Shown here piece by piece: positions 12,793 to 27,232 of a DNA stretch of 64,000 nt. How positions within the stretch are numbered: the first letter of the stretch is position 1; each line of letters begins with the position of its first letter. The stretch covers positions 2,062,001 to 2,126,000 of the forward strand of contig NZ_CP168900.1 in NCBI RefSeq assembly GCF_041765605.1, in the 5' to 3' direction. The notes under the pieces were generated by a model. It was not told the origin of the DNA and did not search any database. It saw only the letters and a list, made by a program, of their open reading frames with translations. A program made the translations under genes and the position numbers. The DNA comes from Listeria monocytogenes (GTDB taxonomy: Bacteria; Bacillota; Bacilli; Lactobacillales; Listeriaceae).

Positions 12793-12900
12793 TTACAGTT
12801 TACTCATCTGTTATAGTAACAGTTTATTTTGGAATTCGGTTTAAAATCTTTTGTTTACGGATATAAAGTAGTATAATGAACATATAGAAATTAAACTGTA
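12793..12900 (+). promoter_or_regulatory. alsD promoter with three ACAGTTT-type elements
   Basis: The -10 is TATAAT at 12872-12877, inside the block AAGTAGTATAAT, with a weak -35 TTTTGT at 12849-12854 (17-bp spacer). Around it lie TTACAGTTT (12793-12801), TAACAGTTT (12817-12825; the nearby CTGTTATAGTAACAG is a perfect 6+3+6 palindrome) and, inverted downstream of the -10, AAACTGTA (12893-12900). The alsS promoter has the same layout. The elements are read directly; a shared regulator is inference. Confidence 0.55.
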
Positions 12901-12948
12901 TTATTTAAAATCAACTTTTCATATATAACAATTCAAGGAGTGGCAAAG

Positions 12949-13668
12949 ATGGACGCAGTTAGAAAAAATCGATTATTTCAACATTCTACAATGGCAGCAC
13001 TTGTTGGTGGGCTTTTCAGCGGAACAACGAGTTTCAAAGAATTATTACAACATGGTGACCTCGGTATAGGAACACTTGACCAATTTGATGGTGAATTAAT
13101 TATTTTAGACGGAGAAGCTTTTCAAATACGATCAGACGGGCAAGCTTATAAAGTAAAACCAGAAGATACGACACCTTATGCGAGCACCACTTTTTTTGAT
13201 GCCGATACTTCTTTTTCTGTTTCCGAACCGACATCAAAACAAGCCGTGGAAGAAAAAATCGCAGAATTAGTACAAGGACCGAACGTTTTTTATGCAGTAA
13301 AAATGACCGGGAATTTCCGTTATGTGGATACACGCGTTGTACCAAAACAACAAAGACCTTATCCGCCACTCATTGAAGCGGTAAAAGAACAACCAACGTA
13401 TCATTTTGAATATATTACGGGTACGATTGTTGGTTTTTGGACACCTGCTTATATTAGTGGTATTGGCGTTTCTGGTTATCATGTGCATTTTATTGATGAT
13501 ATGCGTAAAATCGGCGGTCATGTATTTGATTATGAAATGCTGGAAGGTACCGTAGAAGTTGCGCAACAAACGGAATTTGAACTACAATTACCTCAAACGA
13601 CGGAATTCTTAAGAAGTGATTTAAGTACGCCGGATATGTTGGAACAGATTGAAGCCGCGGAAAATTAA
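12949..13668 (+). CDS. alsD: alpha-acetolactate decarboxylase
   Basis: AlsD decarboxylates 2-acetolactate to acetoin and so diverts it from Val/Leu synthesis into neutral overflow fermentation. The protein has 239 residues and no signal peptide. The zinc site is visible as the histidines of GYHVHFID and GGHVFDYE in the C-terminal third, and TGTIVGFWTPAYI is also typical. ATG 12949 is chosen from AAGGAG just upstream; an in-frame GTG at 12940 overlaps that site. It has its own promoter and converges on pdp. Its enzyme partner AlsS is encoded 14 kb away on the opposite strand. Confidence 0.95.
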   Translation: MDAVRKNRLFQHSTMAALVGGLFSGTTSFKELLQHGDLGIGTLDQFDGELIILDGEAFQIRSDGQAYKVKPEDTTPYASTTFFDADTSFSVSEPTSKQAVEEKIAELVQGPNVFYAVKMTGNFRYVDTRVVPKQQRPYPPLIEAVKEQPTYHFEYITGTIVGFWTPAYISGIGVSGYHVHFIDDMRKIGGHVFDYEMLEGTVEVAQQTEFELQLPQTTEFLRSDLSTPDMLEQIEAAEN

Positions 13669-13673
13669 AAAAG

Positions 13674-13703
13674 AAAGCTCCCAATTTAATTTGGGAGCTT
13701 TTG
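13674..13703. terminator. bidirectional terminator between alsD and pdp
   Basis: AAAGCTCCCAA (13674-13684) and TTGGGAGCTTT (13691-13701) form a perfect 11-bp stem with a 6-nt loop. A-rich and T-rich flanks let it serve both convergent genes. Confidence 0.9.
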
Positions 13704-13704
13704 T

Positions 13705-15006
13705 TTATTCTGTAATAACTTTATGAACAAGGGTTGGTGCTGTTGCGTAGTCGGAAATTTGAATGTTTTCGTAGATTTTTGCTTTTACGCTTTCGACATC
13801 TTCTTGGTCGGCGAAAATCGTTACGAGTGATTCGCCTTCCTTAACAGCATCTCCCACTTTTTTGCGTAGCATTAAACCTACTGCTAGATTGATTTCGTCT
13901 TCTTTCGTTGCGCGACCGGCGCCTAGGATCATTGCAGCGATACCAATTTCATCGGCAACGATTTGACTTACGAAGCCAGATGATTTAGCGGGTACTTCGA
14001 TTTGGTATTTTGCTTGCGGAAGTTTTTCTGGGTGATCAACAATGCTTGCATCGCCACCTTGATTGGAAAGGAAAGTTTTGAATTTCTCAAGTGCTGCACC
14101 GTTTTCGATTACTTCGATTAGTTTAGCGCGGGCTTCGTCGAGTGTTTCCGCTTGTTTAGCAAGTACGACCATTTGGCTACCAAGCACAAGAACTAATTCT
14201 GTTAAATCTTCTGGTCCTTGGCCTTTTAATGTATCGATGGCTTCTTTTACTTCTAAAGCATTTCCGATTGCTTCGCCAAGTGGTTGGGACATATCAGAAA
14301 TGACTGCCATTGTATTTCTACCAACATTATTACCGATGCGAACCATTGCATGTGCTAGGTTTTCGGCGTCCTCGTCGGTTTTCATAAATGCACCGGCACC
14401 TGTTTTTACATCAAGTACGATTGCATCTGCGCCTGCTGCAATTTTTTTACTCATAATAGAGCTTGCAATTAGTGGTATTGAGTTCACGGTTCCTGTTACA
14501 TCACGAAGCGCGTACATTTTTTTATCTGCTGGTGTAAGGTTACCTGATTGACCAATAACTGCTACTTTGTCGCGGTTTACTAGGTCAATGAAATCTTTTT
14601 TATCCAGTTCAATGTGGAAGCCTTCGATAGATTCTAGTTTATCAATTGTGCCACCTGTGTGACCTAATCCGCGTCCAGACATTTTTGCAACCGGTACGCC
14701 AACTGCTGCTACAAGTGGAGCAAGAACAAGTGTCGTCGTATCGCCAACACCGCCAGTACTATGTTTGTCGACTTTGATTCCTTCAATTGCAGATAGGTCA
14801 ATCGTGTCGCCAGAACCAACCATTGCCATTGTTAAATCTGCGCGTTCTTGGTCGTTCATATCTTGAAAAAAGATTGCCATGGCTAGAGCGCTTGCTTGAT
14901 AATCTGGAATTTCCCCATTTGTATACCCATCAATGAAAAACTGAATTTCTTCTGTTGATAAAGCTTTTCCGTCCCTTTTCTTGGAAATAATATCCACCAT
15001 TCTCAT
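13705..15006 (-). CDS. pdp: pyrimidine-nucleoside phosphorylase
   Basis: Cleaves thymidine, deoxyuridine and uridine with phosphate to base plus (deoxy)ribose-1-phosphate. The 433-residue length is that of the Pdp/DeoA family. It begins [14 protein letters not shown], with helical-domain [23 protein letters not shown], the phosphate-binding [20 protein letters not shown] and the family signature [31 protein letters not shown] precedes the ATG. It is last in the deoR-deoC-lacI-pdp run on minus, and has its own promoter within the 3' end of the lacI-type gene. Deoxyribose-1-phosphate would go via a phosphopentomutase (not in this window) to DeoC. Confidence 0.95.
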
Positions 15007-15056
15007 TTCTCTTCACCCTTTCTTTTTGTCCACTTTAGCATTTTATGTATCTTTAT

Positions 15057-15070
15057 TGAGAACGGTTACA
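15057..15070. promoter_or_regulatory. cre-like site in the pdp leader
   Basis: TGAGAACGGTTACA fits the catabolite-response consensus TGWAANCGNTNWCA at 13 of 14 positions. It lies downstream of the predicted pdp start, a position where CcpA acts as a roadblock. Confidence 0.55.
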
Positions 15071-15077
15071 CTTTTTA

Positions 15078-15093
15078 AGTAAACCGTTTTACT
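15078..15093. promoter_or_regulatory. candidate LacI-family operator upstream of pdp
   Basis: AGTAAACCGTTTTACT is palindromic at 14 of 16 positions around a central CG, the form used by LacI/GalR regulators. The adjacent gene encodes such a regulator, so this is probably its own site rather than a cre (only 10 of 14 cre positions match). Confidence 0.5.
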
Positions 15094-15099
15094 AAACAA

Positions 15100-15150
15100 G
15101 AACATGTGCTTAACATGCTCACTATATCGTACTCGCTCACTTGTTGTCAA
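15100..15150 (-). promoter_or_regulatory. pdp promoter and start-site palindrome
   Basis: On minus, TTGACA (15145-15150), an 18-bp spacer and TATAGT (15121-15126) form a good promoter whose -35 lies in the last codons of the lacI-type gene. Directly after the -10, 15100-15120 is an imperfect palindrome GANCATGT-N5-ACATGNTC, a second possible operator at the transcription start. Confidence 0.55.
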
Positions 15151-16147
15151 TATTTTTCGTACTACTACGTTTGATTAGAGAAATATCAAGCAAACGATTC
15201 TCTAATTTCTCGGTTGGATTTTGAAGATTTTTCAGTAAAAGTTCGGCAGCGATTTCGCCGATGCCATAGATAGGTTGGCGAATGGTTGTAAGTGGCGGTG
15301 TCATATATTCGGAAAGTTCAATGTCGTCAAACCCGATGACGCTAAGATCATTAGGAATGCTCAGGTTTTTCTCGAGTGCCGCTCGGTAGGTTCCCATCGC
15401 CATTAAATCATTGGTTGCAAAAATAGCACTCAGATTTTCTTGGAGTAGTTTTTGCGTTGCAACATAACCACCATTCATCGTCTGGTCCCCGCTCACAATC
15501 CAAGCTTCTTTTACTGGGAGTTTATAATCTTTCATGCACGCCAAGTAACCCTCGTAACGCTCATGTACGTTATAAAAAGAAGTATCCGAAATAATGATTC
15601 CGATGCGCGTATGGCCTAGTTCGATTAAATGCTCGGTCGCCATATAACCGCCTTTGAAATCATCAATCGCGATATTCCCTTCTTGCCTTGGATTCCGCTG
15701 ACGATCGAGTAAAATATACGGAGAACGCTTCTCTTCCATGCGTTTGATAACACCTGAAAGCAGAATATTAGGGCTGGCGATAATTAAGCCATCGACAGCC
15801 CGGTGCAATAATTCTTCTACATATAAATCTTCACGTTCTTTATCATTAGAAGAGTTACAGAGCATAATCATGTAGCCTTCTTTATTTAAGTAATCTTCGG
15901 CCCCTTTCACCATTTGCGAGAAAAAAGGATCGGTTACTTCCGGGACAATCATTCCGATGGTGTTTGTGTGACTAACAATCATATTTTTGGCGAAAAAGTT
16001 TGGTTTGTAGGACATCTCTTTTGCTGTTTTCAGGACTTTTTCACGAGTTACCTCGCTAAATCGTTCCCCTTTACCATTCAAAATTTGAGAAATCGTCGTA
16101 ATTGAAACGCCTGTCTTTTCTGCTATTTCGCGGATGGTTGCAGCCAT
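15137..16147 (-). CDS. LacI-family transcriptional regulator
   Basis: A 336-residue regulator. The N-terminal helix-turn-helix is TIREIAEKTGVSITTISQIL (about residues 3-22), followed by a hinge helix region and a periplasmic-binding-protein-like effector domain (NTIGMIVPEVTDPFFSQMV, then IAIDDFKGGYMATEHLIELG, then LSVIGFDDIELSEYMTPPLT). It lies between deoC and pdp, and the pdp promoter overlaps its 3' end. A palindrome with a central CG lies in the pdp leader, so pdp control by this protein is likely, with a nucleoside or sugar effector. The effector itself cannot be read. It has GGGGGAG as ribosome-binding site. Confidence 0.88.
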   Translation of the reverse strand: MAATIREIAEKTGVSITTISQILNGKGERFSEVTREKVLKTAKEMSYKPNFFAKNMIVSHTNTIGMIVPEVTDPFFSQMVKGAEDYLNKEGYMIMLCNSSNDKEREDLYVEELLHRAVDGLIIASPNILLSGVIKRMEEKRSPYILLDRQRNPRQEGNIAIDDFKGGYMATEHLIELGHTRIGIIISDTSFYNVHERYEGYLACMKDYKLPVKEAWIVSGDQTMNGGYVATQKLLQENLSAIFATNDLMAMGTYRAALEKNLSIPNDLSVIGFDDIELSEYMTPPLTTIRQPIYGIGEIAAELLLKNLQNPTEKLENRLLDISLIKRSSTKNIDNK

Positions 16148-16226
16148 TTAAACTCCCCCAGTCAGATTATCTATTCTCCTTATTTTGCCACATTTAAGAA
16201 TAATAATAAAGGGGTTTCATGCAAAA

Positions 16227-16898
16227 TTAGTAATTATCTGGTTTGGCTGGTTTTTCGCCGGAAACAATTGCGACACCTGCACTCGCGCCAATACGAGTTG
16301 CGCCTGCTTCGATCATTTTTTCTACGTCTTCTTTTGTACGAACTCCACCAGATGCTTTTACGCCGATGTTTGGTCCAACTGTTTTGCGCATTAAGGCGAT
16401 ATCTTCGGCAGTTGCGCCACCTGTGGAGAATCCAGTGGATGTTTTAACGAAGTCTGTTCCCGCTTTTACAGCAATTTCACATGCGCGAACTTTTTCTTCG
16501 TCTGTTAATAGGCAAGTTTCGATAATTACTTTTACTAATGCTTTTCCTTTGGCAGCATCGACTACAGCGCGAATATCACGTTCTACTAGTTCGTCGTCTT
16601 TGTCTTTTAGTGCACCAATATTAATAACCATGTCCACTTCTTTTGCACCGTTTTGGATAGCGTCTTTTACTTCAAATGCTTTTACTTCAGGGGTATTCGC
16701 TCCTAGTGGGAAACCGATAACAGTACATACTACGGATTCTGCTCCAGCAAGTTGTTCAGCGGAAAGTTTTACCCAAGTTGGATTCACGCATACGGAAGCA
16801 AAACCGTATTCTCTCGCTTCTTTTGTTAGTGCTAAAATTTGTTCTTTTGTAGTGTCTGGTTTTAATGCAGTATGGTCGATCATTTTGGCAATTGTCAT
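16227..16898 (-). CDS. deoC: deoxyribose-phosphate aldolase
   Basis: Cleaves 2-deoxyribose-5-phosphate to glyceraldehyde-3-phosphate and acetaldehyde, ending deoxynucleoside breakdown. The protein (223 aa) starts [18 protein letters not shown] chose this ATG because AAAGGAG lies before it, while the longer upstream frame lacks family sequence. The Schiff-base lysine is in [17 protein letters not shown], with an assisting lysine in [15 protein letters not shown]. This is the short bacterial DeoC class. It lies 62 bp downstream of the DeoR-type regulator gene in the same direction, as in the Bacillus deoR-dra operon, but no nupC transporter gene follows. Confidence 0.95.
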
Positions 16899-16960
16899 TT
16901 TAAAAACTCCTTTAAAATTGGATTTGGTTTCATCATATCGCACTACAGAACATTTGTAAA

Positions 16961-17908
16961 CTAATTGATGAAATTTTGTTCAAGTAGTTGTTTTGCGGTA
17001 AATTGGTCGGTAATAAAATGGTTGGCATAACCGCCTCGAAGTGCACCATGAATCGCTTTTATTTTTCGTTCACCACCTGCGACAAGAATGGCTGTTTCTT
17101 TTTGTTTTAAATCTTGTAAGTCGATGCCAATGGTTCGTTCGTCCATTTTCTCGTCAGCGATTTCGCCGTCAATTGTGAAAAATCGCGAACAAATATCGCC
17201 GACTGCTTTTTCTTTTAAGCGAGCCTTTTCTTGATTGGAAAAATAGCCTAGGCGGAAAAGCAAGGCTTCATCACGCACGGTTCCTACTGTAAAAATAGCG
17301 ATATTGGCTTTTTTACCGAGTTCGATGATATTTTTTATATGGCGGTCCGCTTCTACCATTTGTTTAGCGAGTGGGTTATCAAGGACTACAGGAAGCGGAA
17401 GTGATACTGGCGCGGTGTCATAAGCTGCACCGAATAACGCTAATGTTTCGGCCGCATACGTATTGACATCAGAATGACTCACACCACCTTTAAGTTGGAC
17501 GACTTTTATTTCTGCTTTTAGCGGGGCTAGTTTTTGGGCGATTTTGTACATCGTTGTTCCCCAACTTACGCCAAGAATATCGCCATCATGGATAATTTCT
17601 TCTAAATATTCAGCGGCACTTTGGCTGATTTGCTTGGTGATTTCGCTATAATCATTTGTTTGACTGAACGCAACGGTGACATTTTTAAGTTGGTATTTTT
17701 CTTTTAAAGCCACGGCCAGTTCTGTTAGGTTAGAAAATGGATCTTGGACTTCGATTTTGACGTATCCTTTTGTTTTCGCGTTTTGGAGCAACCTGGAAAC
17801 GGTCGGTCTGGATACACCTAGGCGCGTGGCGATTTCTTGCTGACCGAGATCCGCCTGATAATAAAGTCTCGCAACCTCTACACTGAGCTGTTCTTTTTGT
17901 TTATCCAT
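16961..17908 (-). CDS. deoR: DeoR-like regulator of the SorC sugar-binding family
   Basis: A 315-residue repressor. The N-terminal HTH reads [19 protein letters not shown] (about residues 18-36), and the remainder is the SorC-type sugar-phosphate-binding domain ([54 protein letters not shown] and [13 protein letters not shown]). B. subtilis DeoR has this architecture, binds deoxyribose-5-phosphate and controls dra-nupC-pdp. Position immediately upstream of deoC supports the same role here. GGAGGGATGAA precedes the ATG. I did not find a confident operator in the 62-bp gap to deoC. Confidence 0.88.
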
Positions 17909-17974
17909 TTCATCCCTCCATCGTTTTCTTTTTAGTATAACGTAACAGCGGGGATAGTTCGAGAGAGAAGATAA

Positions 17975-18000
17975 AAAAAGACAGCCGCGGCTGTCTTTTT
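17975..18000 (-). terminator. terminator of the mannose-family PTS operon
   Basis: AAAAAGACAGCC and GGCTGTCTTTTT form a near-perfect hairpin around GC with A/T runs on both sides. It separates the EIIA gene from the deoR gene downstream on the same strand. Confidence 0.88.
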
Positions 18001-18004
18001 CCTA

Positions 18005-18421
18005 TTAAAAATCTTCTTCTATTTCCTCAAGTGGCGCGGCATATTCATAAATCCCTAACCGCCCAGTTTCGGCAACTTGATTCGCAAGTTCTTTTAAGGA
18101 TAGCGTTTCACGGCTGATGAATGCTTCTAATAAAAGCGGAATATTCACGCCTGCGACAAGTTCTACTGCATCAAAATTCCCAAGCAAGCGAACGAGTACA
18201 TTAAACGGAGTCCCACCTTTTAAATCGGTTAGAAATAAAATCCCTTCTGTTAGATCGAGTTTAGCTACTTCACTGGCAATTTTTGCCTGTAAATTTTCCG
18301 CGGATTCATTCACTTCAAAAGGAACAAAACTTGTATTTTCTTGTTTACCGCAAATCATTTCCGCAGATTGAATGAGTTCTTTTGCGGCATTTCCATGGGT
18401 ACAAACAAAAATTGCTTTCAT
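18005..18421 (-). CDS. PTS mannose-family EIIA component
   Basis: A 138-residue cytoplasmic EIIA-Man protein. It starts MKAIFVCTHGNAAKE, where His9 is the expected phosphorylation site receiving phosphate from HPr. GILFLTDLKGGTPFNV is the family's second conserved motif, and VAGVNIPLLLEA the third. It is the last gene of the operon (GntR-GntR-EIIB-EIIC-EIID-SIS-SIS-EIIA), with EIIA separate from EIIB rather than fused as in ManX. It passes phosphate to the EIIB encoded at 22176-22643. Substrate is discussed under the two SIS genes. Confidence 0.92.
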   Translation of the reverse strand: MKAIFVCTHGNAAKELIQSAEMICGKQENTSFVPFEVNESAENLQAKIASEVAKLDLTEGILFLTDLKGGTPFNVLVRLLGNFDAVELVAGVNIPLLLEAFISRETLSLKELANQVAETGRLGIYEYAAPLEEIEEDF

Positions 18422-18437
18422 TTTTCAAACCGCCTTT

Positions 18438-19433
18438 TTAATAGTCTAACTGACGATAATATCTTCTGATTTCCATTGGATGACAGTTAATTTTTTCCAC
18501 ATGTACGTCAATGCGATTATTTACCGCGTGGATAATAAATGGTGATAACGCTCCTCTGAATTTGGCGGAAATACCCGGCATATCGTAATCTTTTGCATCA
18601 ATGACTGTATAATTGGCACAGATTTGCGGAATGAAATTAACTACTCGCTCGCTTAAAGAACGCTGGCTATCTTCTGTCACATAAATAGTAACCGGCGTAT
18701 CGCGTTCTACAATTTCAAACATGCCATGGAAAAACTCGTGAGATTCAATTGATTTTGTTTTAATCCAGTGTTGCTCTTCCCAATAACACATTGCGTAAGA
18801 ATAGGTCGCGCCCCACTGGTTCCCAGCACCAACGAAATAATGAATGTCGTCTTGATGATGTTTTAGCGCAAATTCTTGACCAAATTTATCCGCCGCTTTT
18901 TCTACTTCGACAATCCCTTTAGCAAAATGTTGATCCATTTCTTGATAGAACGCATCGTAATCTTCAAATTCGCCAGCTAAATACATAAAACGATCTGCTA
19001 CCATGAAGAATTTTAATTGTTCATTTAACGGATAGGAGATTAAATGATCTACTAAAGTCGCAAGTTCTGCTTCTGCTTTATCAATAAATCCAAATACAGT
19101 TGCGCCAATTTCATTACATTTTTTCACAGCATCTACCACTTCTTGCGTACTTCCAGTTACCGATGAAATGACTACAAGGGTATCTTTAGTAACACGTTTA
19201 TTGCCTGTCGTTAGAAACACAGCTGCATTTTCATAAAAAGTTTCTAATGCTGTTTTTTCTTTCATATGCACCACTGCTTGCATGGCAGACGCGTATGTAC
19301 CGCCAATTCCTAACCAACAAATATTACTAAAGCCGCGGCCATGTATTTGGTCAACTACTTCATTAATTTGCGGGCGTAATTTAAGCGCCCCTTCCATGTT
19401 TTCTCTCACTTTTTGTTCATCAAATTTTAGCAC
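18438..19433 (-). CDS. SIS-domain sugar-phosphate enzyme, FrlB-like deglycase candidate
   Basis: A 331-residue protein with two SIS domains, the sugar isomerase fold. Landmarks are GFSNICWLGIGGTYASAMQA at the start, VVISSVTGSTQEVVDA, and GAGNQWGATYSYAMCYWEEQ with SHEFFHGMFEIVERDTPV, where the conserved Glu/His act on the sugar phosphate. The pattern is closest, by recall, to fructoselysine-6-phosphate deglycase (FrlB) and the Salmonella GfrF protein. No sugar kinase gene is nearby, which fits a substrate phosphorylated during PTS uptake. An aminosugar isomerase role is an alternative. Confidence 0.72.
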   Translation of the reverse strand: MLKFDEQKVRENMEGALKLRPQINEVVDQIHGRGFSNICWLGIGGTYASAMQAVVHMKEKTALETFYENAAVFLTTGNKRVTKDTLVVISSVTGSTQEVVDAVKKCNEIGATVFGFIDKAEAELATLVDHLISYPLNEQLKFFMVADRFMYLAGEFEDYDAFYQEMDQHFAKGIVEVEKAADKFGQEFALKHHQDDIHYFVGAGNQWGATYSYAMCYWEEQHWIKTKSIESHEFFHGMFEIVERDTPVTIYVTEDSQRSLSERVVNFIPQICANYTVIDAKDYDMPGISAKFRGALSPFIIHAVNNRIDVHVEKINCHPMEIRRYYRQLDY

Positions 19434-19455
19434 TATTCATTCCTACTTTCTTTGG

Positions 19456-20520
19456 TTAAATTTTGGATTTCGTTATTTGGTCAAATTCTGGAAAAGCGGA
19501 TACTTCTAAATTAATTCCTTTTTTCTTGGAAATTTCAAAGGATAATAAATGAACCGGGATAGTCATAAACAGCGGCGTCAGAAGTTCTGCTGCCCGCACA
19601 CCGAGTAATAAATCATCTGTCTTTTCCCCGCCTGCATCCGCATAAAATGTTCGGATTTTCTTTACATGGCCTTGTAAAAATTGTTTTAATTTTTCTGCGC
19701 GGTCTTCTAGTAAGCCTTGAGGTTCAAGGAAGATAATATAGTCTTGCTCGGATAAACCTATATAAGGTCCGTGCATATATTCTTCTAACTCCTTACCAAA
19801 AGCTGTAATCCGGATGGTTTCTGTTACTTTTGTTTCTCCTTCACGCGCTACACCATAAGCGGCGCCGTATCCTATGAAGAAAACTCGTTCCGCTTCCATC
19901 AATTCCTGTGTATGCGCATCTACCCAAGCTGCTGATTTCTCTACTACTTTTGGCAAATGACTGGTGATTTTCTTCAACTCCGCGATTTCTGACTGATAAG
20001 CCGCTTCCGATATTTTTTCTTGTAAAAGGGCTAGCTCAAGCGCCATTAAATTCAACATGAGAATGGTTGCGCTATAGCCAAGCGTGACATATGGCATCTC
20101 TTCTATGCCCATTCCGAGATCAATTGCCCGCGTACTTTCTTTAGCAATCGGGCTTGTTAAGTCGCTCGTTAAAGTGAAAACAATGCCACCTTGACGTTCA
20201 ATTTCTTTTACGAGATGAATAGTGGAATAACTGTGCCCACCTTGTGATATAGCGATATATAAGGTGTTTTTGTTTAAGTGAAGCATGTAATTTCCTGCAG
20301 TAGACGGTTCTTCCACATATACGGGAATAGCGAGTTTATCTGACATATATAACTGCGCTGCGAATGCCGCATTAGAACTAGAACCTGTTGCAAAAATAAC
20401 GATTGCTTGATAGTCCACTTTCTCCATTTGAATGACCTTTTGTAAAAGTTCTTTTCGACTTCGGATGATATTTTCATAAACGCTTTGTTCCGACCGGATA
20501 TAATAATCCATGTTTTTCAT
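19456..20520 (-). CDS. SIS-domain sugar-phosphate enzyme, GfrE-like deglycase candidate
   Basis: A 354-residue protein with two SIS domains. The first carries VIFATGSSSNAAFAAQLYMS and YIAISQGGHSYSTIHLVKE. The second has AERVFFIGYGAAYGVAREGE, followed by the EYMHGPYIGLSEQDYIIFLE segment typical of GlmS C-terminal-type isomerase/deglycase domains. No glutaminase domain is present. In the Salmonella gfr and enterococcal clusters, a mannose-family PTS is paired with two such proteins that deglycate glucoselysine-6-P and fructoselysine-6-P. This gene with its neighbour reproduces that pairing. Start ATG has AGGTG upstream; an ATG three codons later is possible. Confidence 0.72.
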   Translation of the reverse strand: MKNMDYYIRSEQSVYENIIRSRKELLQKVIQMEKVDYQAIVIFATGSSSNAAFAAQLYMSDKLAIPVYVEEPSTAGNYMLHLNKNTLYIAISQGGHSYSTIHLVKEIERQGGIVFTLTSDLTSPIAKESTRAIDLGMGIEEMPYVTLGYSATILMLNLMALELALLQEKISEAAYQSEIAELKKITSHLPKVVEKSAAWVDAHTQELMEAERVFFIGYGAAYGVAREGETKVTETIRITAFGKELEEYMHGPYIGLSEQDYIIFLEPQGLLEDRAEKLKQFLQGHVKKIRTFYADAGGEKTDDLLLGVRAAELLTPLFMTIPVHLLSFEISKKKGINLEVSAFPEFDQITKSKI

Positions 20521-20532
20521 TTTTTCACCTAC

Positions 20533-21354
20533 TTATTTTAATAGACCTGTGAACGCTCCTAAAATCCCAATTCCTGCGATTAATAACAGAATCCAATGTG
20601 CTTTTAGTCCTTTTTTATCTAACCAGAAAATAAAGAAGGTGAAGCCAAGTGCTAGGATTCCTGGGACGATACCGTCAAAAACACTTTGAATCGTTACTGC
20701 ATCATCACCAGAGCCAAATTTCATTGGCATATTAATATTCACCATCGTGGCGACCATTGCACCAACTACAGCCAGCCCGATAACCGAAGCACCATAAGAG
20801 AGTTTATCCATTAATCCAGTTTTTTGAATTTTTTCGATAAAATTAGCTCCGATATTGTAGCCAATAAATAATCCATAATAACGAGTCAGAATAGCTGGAA
20901 TATTGAAAATAAGAAGGAACAAAATCGGCCCTAACATATTTCCTTGAAGCGCTAAGGAAGTTCCAATACCTGTAGCGATAACGCGTAAAGTTCCCCAGAA
21001 GAACGAATCTCCAATCCCACTCAGCGGTCCCATTAACGCTACTTTTATATTGTTGATGGAGTCTGTGTCAAAGTCTTTATCTTTCGCAGATTGTTCCTCC
21101 ATCGCAATCGAAATCCCGAGCGGAAAAGTGGAAAGCCACGGTGTTACGTTATAAAATTCTAAATGCCTTTGATAAGAAGAAATTCGTTTATCTTTATCAT
21201 TTTTAAAAATTTTGTTTAAGGCTGGTAGCATGGAAAATCCATAACCGAGATTGGATTGTCGTTCGTAGTTCCATGACCATTCCATCGTGAACGAGCGCCA
21301 GAAAACTTTCATTAAGTCTTTTTTTGTTAATACGTCAGAACTCTTCATCTTCAT
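20533..21354 (-). CDS. PTS mannose-family EIID membrane component
   Basis: A 273-residue EIID subunit. The cytoplasmic N-terminal half has LMKVFWRSFTMEWSWNYERQ, GYGFSMLPALNKIF, FYNVTPWLSTFPLGISIAME and MGPLSGIGDSFFWGTLRVI. The C-terminal half has several hydrophobic segments ending AHWILLLIAGIGILGAFTG. With EIIC it forms the sugar-translocating membrane unit. Its start overlaps the end of the EIIC gene by 20 bp (alternative ATG two codons in), indicating translational coupling. Confidence 0.93.
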   Translation of the reverse strand: MKMKSSDVLTKKDLMKVFWRSFTMEWSWNYERQSNLGYGFSMLPALNKIFKNDKDKRISSYQRHLEFYNVTPWLSTFPLGISIAMEEQSAKDKDFDTDSINNIKVALMGPLSGIGDSFFWGTLRVIATGIGTSLALQGNMLGPILFLLIFNIPAILTRYYGLFIGYNIGANFIEKIQKTGLMDKLSYGASVIGLAVVGAMVATMVNINMPMKFGSGDDAVTIQSVFDGIVPGILALGFTFFIFWLDKKGLKAHWILLLIAGIGILGAFTGLLK

Positions 21355-22153
21355 AATTTATACCTCCATCATTCGCAAGTGCTGGCTCTGTATTCGTATT
21401 CTTCGGACCATTGTCATTTTTAAGCGTTGCATAACCAGTTAAAATTAGCGCTAAACATGCAGCGAAAATCGCTACGCCTGTTACAGGAACTTTTAAATAA
21501 ACAGCTAATGCGAAGCCAAATACGAAAAATACGGCATTCTTTTTGTTCACCATTAATTTTAGAAGTAAAGCAAAACCATATGCTGGCAGTAAACCTGTCG
21601 CAATTCCAAGTCCTGTTATAACGAAAGCCGGGATGGCATCAAGTACGTTTTGGATGACTGGGCTTCCGACTAGATAGGACGTTGCGACAATAATACCAAT
21701 TGGTAAGTTGATCGATAAAAATCCACCGAGCAGTTGCATTCGACTGATTCCTCGCGAATTACCCTCGAGTGCGTATTTATCCGCTTTATGCACAAAGTAA
21801 GGTAATACGAAAATGAAGCATAGATTTTTAACGACAAGTACAAGGGAAGCAATCGGAATTCCAAGTGCTAATGCTACCGCTGTACTCTCGCCAGTCGAAA
21901 TCGCAAAGGCTGTTCCTAGTATACTTCCTGAAATAATTTCTGGAGGAATAGATGCTCCGATAGAAAAAGATCCTACAAAAGCTAATTCCAAAGTTGCTCC
22001 CATAATAATCCCCATTTGTACATCACCCATGATAAGTCCGGCGAGTGTACATGTTACCAGTGGTCTTGATAGCATCGATGAACCAAATAAATACTCTCCA
22101 TTTGCAAGCATTGCTGCAAGTGCAAGCAAAATCGCTGTTCCAAACTGTTCCAT
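21335..22153 (-). CDS. PTS mannose-family EIIC membrane component
   Basis: A 272-residue polytopic membrane protein with multiple hydrophobic segments, starting MEQFGTAILLALAAMLANGE. Family motifs are LVTCTLAGLIMGDVQMGIIM, GATLELAFVGSFSIGASIPP and ISGSILGTAFAISTGES, the EIIC-Man/sorbose signature with the conserved Glu. The C-terminal tail is hydrophilic and unusually rich in Asn/Asp (NDNGPKNTNTEPALANDGG). It sits between EIIB and EIID genes with overlap to EIID. Confidence 0.93.
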   Translation of the reverse strand: MEQFGTAILLALAAMLANGEYLFGSSMLSRPLVTCTLAGLIMGDVQMGIIMGATLELAFVGSFSIGASIPPEIISGSILGTAFAISTGESTAVALALGIPIASLVLVVKNLCFIFVLPYFVHKADKYALEGNSRGISRMQLLGGFLSINLPIGIIVATSYLVGSPVIQNVLDAIPAFVITGLGIATGLLPAYGFALLLKLMVNKKNAVFFVFGFALAVYLKVPVTGVAIFAACLALILTGYATLKNDNGPKNTNTEPALANDGGINYEDEEF

Positions 22154-22175
22154 AATTTATCCCTTCTTTCGTCTT

Positions 22176-22643
22176 TTATGCTTCAAAGGTTACTTTTTTC
22201 TCGTTAGGCACTTGTTGCATAAATACATCTACCTTTTCTTTTTGAAGTTCTTTTAACTTCGCTACTTCTTCAGGTGTTAAATTGATTGCTTTGGAAAAAT
22301 TGGCTGTTCCTTCTCTTTGCTTTGTTCCGCCTAGATTTAACATCGGGATTTTACCATTCGTGCCATGGATTAATTTGTAAGCGTCTTCAACCGATTCAAC
22401 AACAATAAGCATGTTGTATTTGTCGGTGACGCCGGAATTAATTGCTTCGATGCTTTCATCGATACTTTTCATGACTAGTTTTGCCGCCTCGGGTTTAGCG
22501 AGACGTATTGCCGACTTACGGAAATCGTCCGCCGCTACCCCATCATTTGCCACTAAAATTGTATTTACATCTAAAGCATTAAACCAAGATACAGCTACTT
22601 GTCCATGTAGTAAACGATGGTCTACTCTTAGAAATTGAATCAT
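22176..22643 (-). CDS. PTS mannose-family EIIB component
   Basis: A 155-residue cytoplasmic EIIB of the mannose/sorbose type. The phosphorylated histidine is expected to be His13 in MIQFLRVDHRLLHGQVAVSW. INSGVTDKYNMLIVVESVED and IPMLNLGGTKQREGT are also typical. I chose the ATG at 22643, since GGAGGAAGA lies just before it; the longer frame would start inside that site. It lies 19 bp after the second GntR gene and is the first structural gene of the operon. Confidence 0.93.
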   Translation of the reverse strand: MIQFLRVDHRLLHGQVAVSWFNALDVNTILVANDGVAADDFRKSAIRLAKPEAAKLVMKSIDESIEAINSGVTDKYNMLIVVESVEDAYKLIHGTNGKIPMLNLGGTKQREGTANFSKAINLTPEEVAKLKELQKEKVDVFMQQVPNEKKVTFEA

Positions 22644-22662
22644 TTTTTCTTCCTCCTTCGTA

Positions 22663-23364
22663 TTAGTTAAAATCAACTACATATTTGGTCGACTCAGCAT
22701 CTTCATAATGATATTGGATGGCAATTGGCATCTCGTTTTCTGCATAAAAGACACTACTCAATTTGAAAACAGGATCATTTTCGTCTACATGCATATTTTT
22801 GATTTGCTCATTCCCAGCTAAAATAAGTTGAAGTTCCTGCTCAAGCTCAAATAATTTATATTTACCTGAATTAACAAGCTCAATAATATTAATAATTTGA
22901 AAATCCTTTGCTTGTAAATCAGGGTATAAACTTAGTGGTAAAATTAAGCGATCTAGTGTGACACCATGCTCACTTTTTTGGACAAACTTGATAGAATACA
23001 CAAGTTCATTCTCTTTTATACCAAACTTCTCTGCGTAAAATTTCCCAGCTTTACGGATGTAAAAGTCTTTAATGTCTTTTTTCAGATTTTCATTGGTATC
23101 GGTTTTCATAACACCTGTCATTTCTAAAATGTTCTGAGCTGTTAGTTTTGGTTGGACGTATAGCCCAACACCGTTTTTACGAACAACTAAACCTTCTTCG
23201 ACTAATAAATCTACCGCGCGGCGAATCGTTGTCCGACTACTAGAAAAAATTTCTTGCAAGGCTGTTTCGTTCGGCATTAGCATTCCCGGCTTATATTCAT
23301 CGCGATTAATACTATCTTTTATTTCTGAAGCTATTACTTCAAAAAGTGGCTTTTTAGCTCCCAT
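22663..23364 (-). CDS. GntR-family regulator with UTRA domain (second of two)
   Basis: A 233-residue regulator. The N-terminal winged helix has PLFEVIASEIKDSINRDEYK and the recognition region NETALQEIFSSSRTTIRRAV (about residues 30-50). The remaining part is a UTRA effector domain, which in this family binds sugar phosphates or amino-sugar phosphates. I chose the ATG at 23362-23364 because GGAGG lies 8 bp upstream; an ATG three codons earlier abuts it. Only one base separates it from the preceding GntR gene. Two non-identical GntR/UTRA regulators in tandem could form a heterodimer or sense two related substrates. Confidence 0.87.
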   Translation of the reverse strand: MGAKKPLFEVIASEIKDSINRDEYKPGMLMPNETALQEIFSSSRTTIRRAVDLLVEEGLVVRKNGVGLYVQPKLTAQNILEMTGVMKTDTNENLKKDIKDFYIRKAGKFYAEKFGIKENELVYSIKFVQKSEHGVTLDRLILPLSLYPDLQAKDFQIINIIELVNSGKYKLFELEQELQLILAGNEQIKNMHVDENDPVFKLSSVFYAENEMPIAIQYHYEDAESTKYVVDFN

Positions 23365-23365
23365 T

Positions 23366-24097
23366 TCACTCATCCTCCAAGTAATCAAAGATGTTTTTCG
23401 CATTGATTTTGTATTTAATTTGATTACCAATTAGATATTGTTTACTGTACTCAAAAGGTTCATCATTTTGATCAAATGCTTTACTCACTACTTCAAAAAG
23501 TGGCGTGTGTAGTGGTACCTTTAACGCTTCTGCTAGCTTTTCATTCGCTGATACATAGCGCAATTCTTCGCGCCCGTAGGTAGGTTTAATAGCAAACTGC
23601 TTTTCTAACACATTGTATAGCGAGGAATTATTTAAATCGATTTTCTCAATACCAGCAAATCTCGCGCTATCAATAAAAGATATTTCATAAGAAAACGGCT
23701 TATTATCAACTATTCTTCGACGAACTAATTTAAACACCGGCTTATCTTCGCTTAAGTTTAAAAAGTGATTCACCTCGTCTTTGCCAGCTACTATTTCTTG
23801 TGACATTACTTCTACTTTTTGTTCTCCCGGCAATTGGCTGCTCATGGAATTCATTTGCAAAATATTGATTGTTTGCTTTTGATTGATTTCGATTCCTTTT
23901 CGGTTTCTTTTTTGGATGACCGCTTCTTTTTCAAGGGTATCAAGTGACCGTCTGAGTGTAGTTCTACTGACACCTAGTTCGTTTTCAAGCGCACGTTCTG
24001 ATGGGAAACTTGTTTCTCCGGCTGCTACTTTTTCTTGGATAAGCTGTCTTAGTTGTTCTTCACTTTGCACTGCTGGCGACAAGTCTTTATATTCCAT
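23366..24097 (-). CDS. GntR-family regulator with UTRA domain (first of two)
   Basis: A 243-residue regulator. The N-terminal winged HTH contains FPSERALENELGVSRTTLRR (about residues 36-55), followed by a UTRA ligand-binding domain with KPVFKLVRRRIVDNKPFSYE and HTPLFEVVSKAFDQNDEPFE. It opens the PTS operon, so autoregulation through the promoter at 24178-24206 is likely. The UTRA domains of both regulators end in similar motifs (Glu/Asp-Pro-Phe then a KY near the C-terminus), suggesting an old duplication with large divergence. It has AGAGGTGG as ribosome-binding site. Confidence 0.87.
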   Translation of the reverse strand: MEYKDLSPAVQSEEQLRQLIQEKVAAGETSFPSERALENELGVSRTTLRRSLDTLEKEAVIQKRNRKGIEINQKQTINILQMNSMSSQLPGEQKVEVMSQEIVAGKDEVNHFLNLSEDKPVFKLVRRRIVDNKPFSYEISFIDSARFAGIEKIDLNNSSLYNVLEKQFAIKPTYGREELRYVSANEKLAEALKVPLHTPLFEVVSKAFDQNDEPFEYSKQYLIGNQIKYKINAKNIFDYLEDE

Positions 24098-24177
24098 ATT
24101 TCCACCTCTTTTTTCAAATCATCTATCTATTTCACTTTTTAAAAAGATACAGCTTTAAACATTTTTAATACCACTTT

Positions 24178-24206
24178 ATTGTAAACGGTTGCATTTTGTT
24201 TGTCAA
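24178..24206 (-). promoter_or_regulatory. promoter of the mannose-family PTS operon
   Basis: On minus, TTGACA (24201-24206), a 17-bp spacer and TACAAT (24178-24183). The spacer and -10 are overlaid by a cre match, which implies catabolite repression at initiation. Confidence 0.75.
24180..24193. promoter_or_regulatory. cre site over the PTS operon promoter
   Basis: TGTAAACGGTTGCA matches TGWAANCGNTNWCA at 13 of 14 positions and overlaps the -10, the usual place for CcpA to block RNA polymerase. Confidence 0.75.
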
Positions 24207-24220
24207 TAGTCTTTTTACAT

Positions 24221-24262
24221 AAAAAAAAGCATGAGTCAGATTTTTCCATCCAACTCATGCTC
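24221..24262 (-). terminator. terminator of the aldo/keto reductase gene
   Basis: On minus, GCATGAGT (24253-24260) pairs with ACTCATGC (24229-24236), followed by eight T residues (24221-24228). Confidence 0.88.
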
Positions 24263-24269
24263 CATTTGA

Positions 24270-25265
24270 TTATTTAGTTGTAGGTAGCGCTCCAACTACT
24301 GGGTGCGGAATATATAATTCTTCTAGATAGTTAACCTCCGCTGCCGTTAATTGAATATTTAGCGCCTCTACCGCGCTTTCCAGATGACTTTCTTTTTGCG
24401 CACCGATGATCGGCGAAGTGATTTCATCTTTATTTAATAGCCACGCTAAAGCAATTTTATCTCGAGATACTTGGTGTGTTTCCGCAAGTTCAGCCACACG
24501 TTCAATAATACCTCTATCTGCATTCATCATGTCATCGTATTTGGATTTTTGAACTGGATCCGTTTCGGAACGATTGGTTGTTTCATTCAAATCTCGCGTT
24601 AATCGTCCTGATGCTAGCGGGCTGTATGGTGTAATCGCAATTTTTTCATCGCGACAAAACGGAATCATTTCTCGCTCTTCTTCCCGGTAAATCATATTAT
24701 AATGATTTTGCATGGAAACGAATTTTGTCCAACCATTTCTCTCTGCGACGCGTTGTGCTTTTTGGAACTGCCAAGCATACATCGCACTCGCTCCAATGTA
24801 ACGCGCTTTCCCGGACTTAACGACATCGTGTAAAGCTTCCATCGTTTCTTCAATCGGCGTATTTTCATCAAAACGGTGAATGATATATAAATCCACATAA
24901 TCTGTTTCTAAGCGTTTTAAACTATGGTCGATTTCACTCAAAATGGTTTTCCTGGATAAGCCACCACTATTCGGGCGATCCGGGCGCATTGTTTGTTGCA
25001 CCTTGGTCGCTAAAACAACATCATCGCGGTTAGCATAGTCTTTTAGTGCACGTCCAACGATTTTTTCACTCTCACCATAAGAATAAATATTCGCAGTATC
25101 AAAGAAATTTATGCCTAAATCGAGTGCTTTTTTTATGATAGGGCGACTGTTCGCTTCGTCCAAAACCCATTTATGAATCCATTTGTCTTTATCACCGAAC
25201 CCCATTGTTCCTAAACAGATTTTTGAAACATCCAAGCCAGTGTTGCCAAATTTAACATATTCCAT
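24270..25265 (-). CDS. aldo/keto reductase
   Basis: A 331-residue NADPH-type oxidoreductase of the AKR superfamily. The TIM barrel starts EYVKFGNTGLDVSKICLGTM. The catalytic tetrad is visible: Asp and Tyr in GINFFDTANIYSYGESE, Lys in DVVLATKV, and His in DLYIIHRFDENTPIEE. A cofactor-binding region near the C-terminus is SPIIGAQKESHLESA. Substrate is unknown; family members reduce aldehydes such as methylglyoxal. It stands alone, with its own terminator, behind a promoter with a 19-bp spacer of the kind MerR regulators activate, which suggests induction by a reactive electrophile. Confidence 0.9.
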   Translation of the reverse strand: MEYVKFGNTGLDVSKICLGTMGFGDKDKWIHKWVLDEANSRPIIKKALDLGINFFDTANIYSYGESEKIVGRALKDYANRDDVVLATKVQQTMRPDRPNSGGLSRKTILSEIDHSLKRLETDYVDLYIIHRFDENTPIEETMEALHDVVKSGKARYIGASAMYAWQFQKAQRVAERNGWTKFVSMQNHYNMIYREEEREMIPFCRDEKIAITPYSPLASGRLTRDLNETTNRSETDPVQKSKYDDMMNADRGIIERVAELAETHQVSRDKIALAWLLNKDEITSPIIGAQKESHLESAVEALNIQLTAAEVNYLEELYIPHPVVGALPTTK

Positions 25266-25300
25266 TCAAAACCCTCCTAGTTAATTTCTAGTACTATTAC

Positions 25301-25331
25301 AGCATAAACCTTGAAGCCCACTCCAAGTCAA
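25301..25331 (-). promoter_or_regulatory. MerR-type promoter of the aldo/keto reductase gene
   Basis: On minus, TTGACT (25326-25331) and TATGCT (25301-25306) are separated by 19 bp. The spacer contains the dyad CTTGGAGTGGGCTTCAAG (25310-25327). Over-long spacers with a CTTGNAGT/ACTNCAAG dyad are characteristic of MerR-family activated promoters. No MerR gene lies in this window. Confidence 0.65.
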
Positions 25332-25341
25332 CCTTTAACTA

Positions 25342-25375
25342 TAAAAAAATCTCCCGGGAAATCCGAGAGATTTTT
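25342..25375 (-). terminator. terminator of alsS
   Basis: On minus, AAAATCTCTCGG pairs with CCGGGAGATTTT (12 bp, one G-U) around a short loop, followed by T residues. Confidence 0.85.
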
Positions 25376-25381
25376 AACGTT

Positions 25382-27079
25382 TTAATAAAATTGGTCAGGT
25401 AGTAAAGTTTCGCCGAGTTTGATGTTATCACGGTAATCAATTGGAATATCTACAACGACGGGACCTTCTGTTTCAAGCGCTTCTTTTAATACATCAGAAA
25501 GTTCTGCTGGATTTGTTACGCGAAGACCTTTTGCTCCGAAACTTTCTGCAAATTTTACGATATCAACATTGCCAAAACGAACAGCTGCTTCTTTGCCGTA
25601 TTTCATTTTTTGTTGGAAAGCAACCATGTCATAGCTTCCGTCATTCCATACAAGGTGCACAAGTGGCGCACGCAAGCGGACAGCTGTTTCTAATTCCATT
25701 GCGGAAAATAGGAAGCCACCGTCACCAGAAATCGAAACCACTTTTTCACCCGGATGTACGAGTGTTGCAGCAATTCCCCAAGGAAGCGCGACACCGAGCG
25801 TTTGCATACCGTTGCTGAAAAGCAGACGGCGTGGTTCATAAGAGCGGAAATGACGCGCCATCCAAATATAATGTGAACCAACATCGACCGTCACAGTTAC
25901 GTTGTCATCAATTGCCGAACGTAGCGTTTGAATGACCGACAAGGGATGTACCCGGTTAGTTTCATCACTTTCTGGCGGAACATCTCGTTCTTCTAATTGG
26001 GCGTGAAGTTCTTTTAATGTTTCTAGTTCTTTATCCGCTAATTCCAAACCGCTAAATTTCGCATTTACACGGTCTAAAGTAAGCGCGATGTTTCCAACTA
26101 GCTCTGTCACCGGTTGATAATAATGATCGATATCAGCTCGAATGTCGTCTAAATGCACAATCGTTCTATCGCCAGAGGCATTCCAAGCTTTTGGATCGTA
26201 TTCAATCGGATCATAGCCAACCGTAATAACTAAATCCGCTTTATTCAATAAAATATCTCCTGGTTGGTTGCGGAATAGACCAACACGTCCAAAGAAGTTA
26301 TCTTCTAAATCGCGTGAAATGACACCAGCTGCTTGGAAAGTTTCTACTACTGGGATGCTTGTTTTTTGGAGTAAGCGACGAATCGCGCCAGTTACTTCCG
26401 GGCTAGATGCTCGCATACCTAATAGCAATACCGGTAATTTCGCTTTTTTCAAACGGGCAACGAGTTTCGCAACTTGTTCTTTGGAAGCAGGACCATTTTC
26501 TGGTTTAGCAAGTGGGCGAATCGCTTTTACTGGTACGTTTGGTTCATTCACGATATCTTGTGGCAAACTGACAAAAGCAGCGCCTTGGTTTGGTTCTGCT
26601 GCCGAGCGAAAAGCGTTAGTGATTGCTTCTGGAATACTTTCAGCGTGAACTACTTCTTCGCTATATTTTGTAATTGGACGAAAAAGTGCTGCATTATCCA
26701 TTGATTGGTGGGTTCTTTTTAGGCGGTCTTGTCTAGTTACGTTTCCAGCAATCGCAACGACTGGATCTCCTTCAGCAGTTGCTGTTACAAGTCCAGTGGC
26801 AAGGTTTGATGCGCCGGGGCCACTAGTTACAAGTACAACACCAGGTTTCCCAGTTAGACGACCGATAGCAGCAGCCATAAACGCCGCATTTTGTTCATGA
26901 CGACTGACAATTAATTCTGGTCCGCGTTCTTCCATCACATCGAAAACTTTATCAATTTTCGCTCCCGGAATCCCGAATACATGCGTAACACCTTGATTAA
27001 TTAAGCTGTCTACAACTAAATCTGCTCCTGATTTCCCTTGTGTTATTACTTTTTCTTGGTCTTTTTCTAGTTTCGCCAT
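25382..27079 (-). CDS. alsS: catabolic acetolactate synthase
   Basis: AlsS joins two pyruvates to acetolactate for acetoin formation. The 565-residue protein is ThDP-dependent: catalytic Glu in [18 protein letters not shown], then [17 protein letters not shown], and the ThDP-binding [18 protein letters not shown] with its downstream Asn (WNDGSYDM). Unlike IlvB it has [20 protein letters not shown] in the substrate region, typical of catabolic, FAD-independent enzymes, and no small subunit gene. I chose ATG 27079 because AAAGG lies 9 bp upstream; the ATG at 27088 abuts it. It is monocistronic, with a promoter sharing elements with that of alsD. Confidence 0.94.
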
Positions 27080-27122
27080 CGTTATCATCCTTTTGTTATA
27101 TAAATTATTAAAATTTCAATAG

Positions 27123-27232
27123 TACAGTTTTCAAAAATTCTTCATTTACAAGAATTATTATACTACTTAAAAGAATTATTGCAAGGTTCTTGACTCAAAA
27201 ACTGTTATATAATTATATGAAAACTGTTATAT
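27123..27232 (-). promoter_or_regulatory. alsS promoter with three ACAGTTT-type elements
   Basis: On minus, TTGCAA, a 16-bp spacer and TATAAT (27157-27162) lie in the block AAGTAGTATAAT, identical to that at alsD. Upstream are two direct copies of ATATAACAGTTT (27199-27210 and 27221-27232), 22 bp apart, and downstream an inverted AAACTGTA (27123-27130). The two-upstream plus one-inverted-downstream layout repeats that of alsD. Confidence 0.6.

Follow-up and report, generated by a model that had tools for sequence, protein, structure and literature searches.

The alsSD genes of Bacillus subtilis are controlled by AlsR, a regulator of the LysR type, and in Staphylococcus aureus both alsSD and cidABC are controlled by CidR, which is of the same type. 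LytTR regulators bind direct repeats whose core resembles ACAGTT and whose copies are about 21–22 base pairs (bp) apart. In this study, the control sequences of alsS and alsD were analyzed in a stretch of 64,000 nucleotides of Listeria monocytogenes (assembly GCF_041765605.1, contig NZ_CP168900.1, positions 2,062,001 to 2,126,000; hereafter the window). An earlier reading of these letters without database searches (the sequence-only reading) had proposed that the two promoters share one operator layout and one regulator. Our results confirmed that alsS and alsD share a precisely spaced control sequence, which belongs to a wider system than that reading saw. The proposal of a shared operator read by one regulator is well supported by the fixed positions at alsS in 22 genomes and by the same half-site and 22-bp spacing in other genera.

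Operator elements of alsS and alsD in Listeria

Positions are window coordinates unless called genome positions. G000 is the genome of the window (2.98 megabases, Mb), other G-numbers are genomes compared, and promoter distances were counted from the first base of the -10 hexamer. Promoters and start sites were predicted from consensus and conservation. Judged by family matches, the gene names are firm: alsS (25382..27079, minus strand) matches NF006378 and TIGR02418 for catabolic acetolactate synthase, and alsD (12949..13668, plus strand) matches TIGR01252 for acetolactate decarboxylase. Both start codons were picked by their ribosome-binding sites.

Upstream of alsS, the half-site ATATAACAGTTT occurs twice on the minus strand, at 27221..27232 and 27199..27210. 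The -10 hexamer TATAAT (27157..27162, minus strand) is within the 12-mer AAGTAGTATAAT (27157-27168), and the downstream half-site is AAACTGTACTATT (27118..27130, minus strand; AAACTGTA at 27123-27130). A close AlsS was found in 22 of the 25 Listeria genomes, and the other three contained only paralogs of about 30% identity. The upstream ACAG copies were at -65 and -43 in 21 of these 22 genomes and at -64 and -42 in the remaining one. The 22-bp period was found in all 22, and much of the remaining promoter varied between clades. G005 had a third ACAG copy at -87. The downstream half-site was also retained in all 22, its CTGT being at +34/35 in 15 close genomes and at +23/24 in 7 others, two classes one helical turn apart.

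Upstream of alsD, half-site 1, TTACAGTTT (12793..12801, plus strand; ACAG starting at -77), is followed by an inverted half-site, CTGTTATAG (12808..12816, minus strand; CTGT at -64), and by half-site 2, TAACAGTTT (12817..12825, plus strand; ACAG at -53). The direct copies are 24 bp apart, compared with 22 bp at alsS, and half-site 1 and CTGTTATAG form ACAG-N9-CTGT. The -10 hexamer TATAAT (12872..12877, plus strand) is within AAGTAGTATAAT (12866-12877), and the downstream half-site is AAACTGTATTATT (12893..12905, minus strand; AAACTGTA at 12893-12900). Among close relatives, the -77 and -64 positions were found in 15 of 15 and the -53 position in 13 of 15. In G011 and G024, where the second ACAGTTT is missing, half-site 1 is the sole upstream ACAG remaining and CTGTTATAG is retained.

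The alsD gene was found in 23 of the 25 genomes, and its layout was looser than that of alsS. The close clade has ACAG at -77, CTGT at -64, ACAG at -53 and CTGT at +24. G001, G014 and G023 have ACAG at -58 and CTGT at -44, G004 and G010 have an inverted pair 23–24 bp apart, and in G007 and G009 the direct copies are spaced by 21 and 22 bp. The downstream CTGT was at +20 to +24 in 21 of the 23 genomes and was not found in G007 and G021, the latter of which has no close AlsS and no site in its alsD promoter. In G007, alsD is split over two frames, and the upstream promoter elements are partly retained. A further element, TATATAACA, abuts the ribosome-binding site in both leaders (12922-12930, plus strand; 27094-27102, minus strand), is conserved in close relatives and is similar to the upstream half-site minus its G.

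Direct reading placed every element named by the sequence-only reading where it had been located, and its distances were correct: 46 bp at alsD and 36 bp at alsS between the nearer upstream copy and the -10, and 15 and 26 bp between the -10 and the downstream copy. It had overlooked the inverted alsD half-site at 12808-12816. The two upstream ACAGTTT copies it described have fixed positions at alsS, and the second copy at alsD is sometimes lost. The identical -10 12-mer did not hold as part of the shared layout, since it is clade-specific and exact in 15 of 23 alsD and 4 of 22 alsS promoters. The argument from whole helical turns held in comparison, both in the two alsS downstream classes and in five distinct upstream-to-downstream distances (54, 66, 67, 77, and 78), which are in a common helical phase. 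With distance classes chosen after the data had been seen, the phase test gave p values of 0.004 at 11.0 bp, 0.025 at 10.5 bp and 0.007 at the best-fitting period in the 10–12 range. The alsD of G007, which is without a downstream CTGT, was excluded from this test. Measured from -64 instead, the two genomes that lack the -53 copy would have a distance of 88, likewise in phase.

The motif columns were more conserved than the rest of the promoters in the 15 close genomes (0.975 versus 0.829 for alsD and 0.981 versus 0.811 for alsS). This degree of conservation was matched by 2 of 111 circular shifts for alsD and 3 of 111 for alsS, with the true placement counted in. The single words were not enriched: TAACAGTTT with at most one mismatch had 18 matches in the window against 29 expected, and the 12-mer with at most two mismatches had 8 against 7.9. 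The pair ACAGTTT-N13..17-ACAGTTT was rare. The pair occurred at three places in the 2.98-Mb genome, i.e., alsD, alsS and the promoter of a gene for an OppA-like protein, and at none in the reversed control. Over the 25 Listeria genomes, there were 54 places versus 10 in the reversed control; sorted by hand, these were 18 alsS, 13 alsD, 15 of the OppA type (by sequence likeness) and 8 others. A longer 22-bp pattern with at most three mismatches had 2 genomic places (alsS and the OppA-like gene) versus 0 in the control. One pattern requiring TACAGTTT first missed most of the true alsS sites, and its result carries little weight.

Related sites in other genera and at other genes

Named alsS loci, the best 80 of at least 552, were examined by genus. 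The 22-bp direct spacing was found in Listeria (9/9), Exiguobacterium (8/8), Lacticaseibacillus (5/5) and Paenibacillus (1/12). In Enterococcus, an inverted spacing of 13 bp was found in 7 of 14 loci and one of 14 bp in 2 of 14, and the 13-bp inverted spacing was also found in 2 of 7 other named loci. Resampled promoters gave an expectation of 0.01–0.06 per distance and group. Neither the 22-bp direct nor the 13–14-bp inverted spacing was found in 15 Bacillus-type and 10 Sporolactobacillus alsS loci. Among 15 alsS promoters at the order level, 6 had a 13–14-bp inverted pair and 1 had a 22-bp direct pair; five of the six inverted pairs were 11–18 bp past the start of a TATAAT. In all eight Exiguobacterium loci, the first ACAG is between a predicted TTGG-type -35 and a predicted TATA-type -10. 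By eye, G026, from another genus of the family (Brochothrix-like is a guess), has a pair of TAACAG copies with 22-bp spacing upstream of alsSD and a downstream element, CTGTATCA / AAACTGTATCA. As seen by eye, ACAG direct repeats form two distinct pairs, of 22 and 21 bp, upstream of alsS in Lacticaseibacillus mingshuiensis and one other genome.

The pattern ACAG-N8..10-CTGTAYTA, modeled on als sites, was run against 13 genomes selected because they carry als genes. It gave 41 places, of which 30 were read as loci and 11 were without a locus. The loci included alsS (6), alsD (2, one palindromic place), pdhA (3) and pta (3). Matches at als are expected, because pattern and genomes were chosen for als; the three pdhA and three pta matches are independent of that design. 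One of the three pdhA sites was scored as inside a gene, with an open frame extending beyond the start codon. Of two further loci, one precedes an Spx-like gene and the other falls within a small ferredoxin-like frame. The former, ACAG-N9-CTGTACTA, is about 230 bp upstream of the Spx-like gene in G086 and may be due to chance.

A half-site matrix was built from 73 distinct als sites. For pta of Listeriaceae, 11 of 30 loci passed its threshold, with 0.93 matches per promoter compared with 0.13 in resampled promoters. Judged by spacing only, 28 of 36 Listeriaceae pta promoters had a direct spacing of 21, 22 or 31 bp. The 22-bp spacing was also found at pta of G006 and G008, though both are without close alsS and alsD. 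The pta sites in genomes without als suggest that the regulator is not dedicated to als. For pdhA, direct spacings of 21, 22 and 31 bp were found in 0 of 30 Listeriaceae promoters, and the pdhA sites were those of some other Lactobacillales. The third strong site of the G000 genome is a 22-bp ACAGTTT pair before the gene for an OppA-like solute-binding lipoprotein (PF00496; genome positions 2633204-2633232, minus strand). By eye, it overlaps the predicted core promoter; its sequence was found in 15 genomes, in 5 of which the downstream gene was verified. A regulon confined to acetolactate formation and decarboxylation, as in the sequence-only reading, is not supported, because in some lineages such sites also precede pta, pdhA and the OppA-like gene.

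Proposed mode of control and its alternatives

From the motif, its spacing, its conservation and the set of genes that carry it, we infer that the sites probably bind one factor marking pyruvate-overflow genes in Listeriaceae and a number of related groups. This protein would be a probable repressor, and in Listeria the upstream pair may loop. Each subunit would read the half-site TAWWACAGTT, and two half-sites would be used either directly repeated at 22 bp, close to two helical turns, or as an inverted pair, ACAG-N9/10-CTGT. Repression is favored because the sites are downstream of or inside predicted core promoters in several lineages and because the downstream half-site is constant in Listeria. 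In Enterococcus-like genomes, the site is just downstream of the -10; at alsS and alsD of Listeria, the downstream half-site is about 8–24 bp past the predicted start. A short loop is favored by the upstream pair and its phase: the pair, which shares a face of the helix with the downstream site, may strengthen repression, which would be lifted on a build-up of pyruvate or acid.

Several results weigh against this reading. The use of both direct and inverted half-sites by one factor is unusual. The 41 places of the ACAG-N8..10-CTGTAYTA pattern compare with 27 in the reversed control, and 14 of the 30 loci are inside unrelated genes. The alsS promoters with neither spacing numbered 5 of 14 in Enterococcus, 8 of 15 at the order level and 11 of 12 in Paenibacillus, and related genomes are not independent. 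In the clade of G000, 0 of 15 pta promoters passed the matrix threshold, their half-sites being weak, and the 31/21-bp pta spacings are within a block that is conserved as a whole. The pta spacings were absent from two genomes of the other, possibly Brochothrix-like genus of the family. At pdhA of Listeriaceae, matches were not above shuffles (2 of 30 promoters; 0.07 versus 0.09 per promoter). Moreover, searches of the neighborhood, for autoregulation and for LytTR proteins found no regulator for the operator. Among the 30 pattern loci, the Spx-like gene about 230 bp away was the only regulator near an intergenic site. The neighborhood of the two genes encodes an RbsR-like LacI protein, a DeoR protein, two GntR proteins and an AraC-type response regulator. 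None of these directly adjoins alsS or alsD, as the sequence-only reading had observed. Similarly, open reading frames inspected by eye revealed no consistent regulator beside alsS in 20 order-level and six Exiguobacterium/Paenibacillus loci; single neighbors were MarR-, DeoR-, YheO- and ArsR-like.

The opposite sign of control is a serious rival to repression, though we consider it rather unlikely. An activator bound at the two upstream half-sites, located about -76 and -54 relative to the predicted start, would recruit the polymerase under sugar excess or acid, and the downstream site would be secondary or for tuning. The invariant distance of the upstream pair to the -10 in 21 of 22 alsS genomes is consistent with activation, as is the lack of a cre site (at most one mismatch) in the alsS and alsD promoters of G000. 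In PMC3017082, alsS and alsD are reported under carbon catabolite activation, which fits an activator and counts against a repressor; PMC6843411 likewise reports acid induction of alsD in three strains and of alsS in two. However, outside alsS and alsD of Listeria, the sites are often just past the -10 or in the predicted core promoter, where repression is usual, and the downstream half-site is retained in 22 of 22 alsS and 21 of 23 alsD promoters. It is improbable that this downstream element functions at the RNA level, in the leader, with protein bound by the upstream copies alone. The element is transcribed and precedes the ribosome-binding site, with the conserved TATATAACA following. Yet it is the reverse complement of the upstream half-site and, in enterococci, half of an inverted pair. 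No consensus RNA pairs and no conserved RNA fold were predicted in the leaders analyzed (12 of 22 for alsS, among which one row was misaligned, and 11 of 22 for alsD).

That the operator is read by a LytTR-family regulator, i.e., AgrA or a small LytTR protein beside a short membrane protein, is very improbable. The half-site core and the 22-bp spacing resemble the LytTR consensus, and all 25 Listeria genomes have at least one LytTR match. However, LytTR (PF04397) was found in 21 of 23 genomes and not in Exiguobacterium antarcticum and Lacticaseibacillus zhaodongensis, whose completeness is not given and whose alsS loci carry the 22-bp repeat. Furthermore, ACAGTTT was not common by eye to the agr promoters (18 loci, 17 usable). 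Most of the 17 had a GACATTTCATTACATTTT-like block; ACAGTTC was found only in that of G000, which has ATACAGTTC and GAACTGTAT. Also against this reading, G004 and G010 have a single LytTR match each, taken as AgrA. LytTR/AgrA was dropped on these grounds and is refuted as the shared regulator unless it was missed in both genomes; a take-over in Listeria only is possible. The small LytTR protein was dropped because several motif genomes, judged by score and length, were without it. As a separate observation, the agrA frame of G000 (genome positions 45728-46372) ends early, at 214 amino acids, its LytTR match being cut at profile position 60; many relatives have 248 amino acids. Finally, it is hardly credible that the similarity reflects chance or inheritance, with AT-rich words retained for other reasons. 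The word by itself is common and close relatives share descent, but the pair is rare in the genome and its spacing is invariant across genera whose promoters otherwise differ.

Comparison with described regulatory systems

No description of the motif was found in the open-access literature searched, including the available parts of PMC3017082, PMC6843411 and PMC6856214 (subscription papers and RegPrecise were outside this scope), in agreement with the sequence-only reading, which knew of none for Listeria. Two other motifs are reported in PMC6843411, one a Fur box and the other 39 bases long, and both differ from the als operator. Similarly, the same literature, as far as available, named no regulator of the acetate/acetoin/acetyl-CoA switch in these bacteria. 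Our results tentatively suggest a global regulator of the pyruvate branch point that predates the divergence of Listeria, Enterococcus, Lacticaseibacillus and Exiguobacterium. It may control alsS, alsD, pta and pdh via a flexible half-site code (22-bp direct or 13–14-bp inverted), with phased-loop repression in Listeria. Acetoin formation is one route for excess pyruvate and acid in Listeria and relatives, and it affects acid tolerance, food spoilage and flavor. A short, exact and conserved operator makes the regulator protein fishable and predicts its regulon in many species.

Similar to the proposed factor, AlsR of B. subtilis acts on the same target genes, which are induced at overflow and acid. 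Different from it, the 22-bp and 13–14-bp spacings are absent from the 15 Bacillus-type alsS promoters. CidR of S. aureus is alike in that acetoin formation is tied to acetate and pyruvate overflow. It differs in being of the LysR type. No LysR gene was found next to alsS among the window open reading frames, nor by eye in 26 other loci, where no family search was made. The operators of AgrA and other LytTR regulators are the most similar in form, with an ACAGTT-like core in two copies about 21–22 bp apart. However, two repeat-bearing genomes have no LytTR match, and inverted use is not typical of these operators.

In Firmicutes, CcpA, CodY and Rex act globally on pta, als or fermentation genes, and five genomes were scanned for their consensus sites. 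No cre site with at most one mismatch was within 260 bp of alsS or alsD of G000, and one 1-mismatch match was found at alsS of G004. A Rex box with at most four mismatches was not found at alsS or alsD of G000; 3-mismatch matches were found at alsS of G013 and G004. Candidate CodY boxes had 3–4 mismatches and were at alsS only, those with three mismatches at G000 and G013 overlapping the upstream repeat, and no CodY box with at most four mismatches was found at alsD of G000. In kind, the operator system of alsS and alsD is familiar, that of a transcription-factor regulon.

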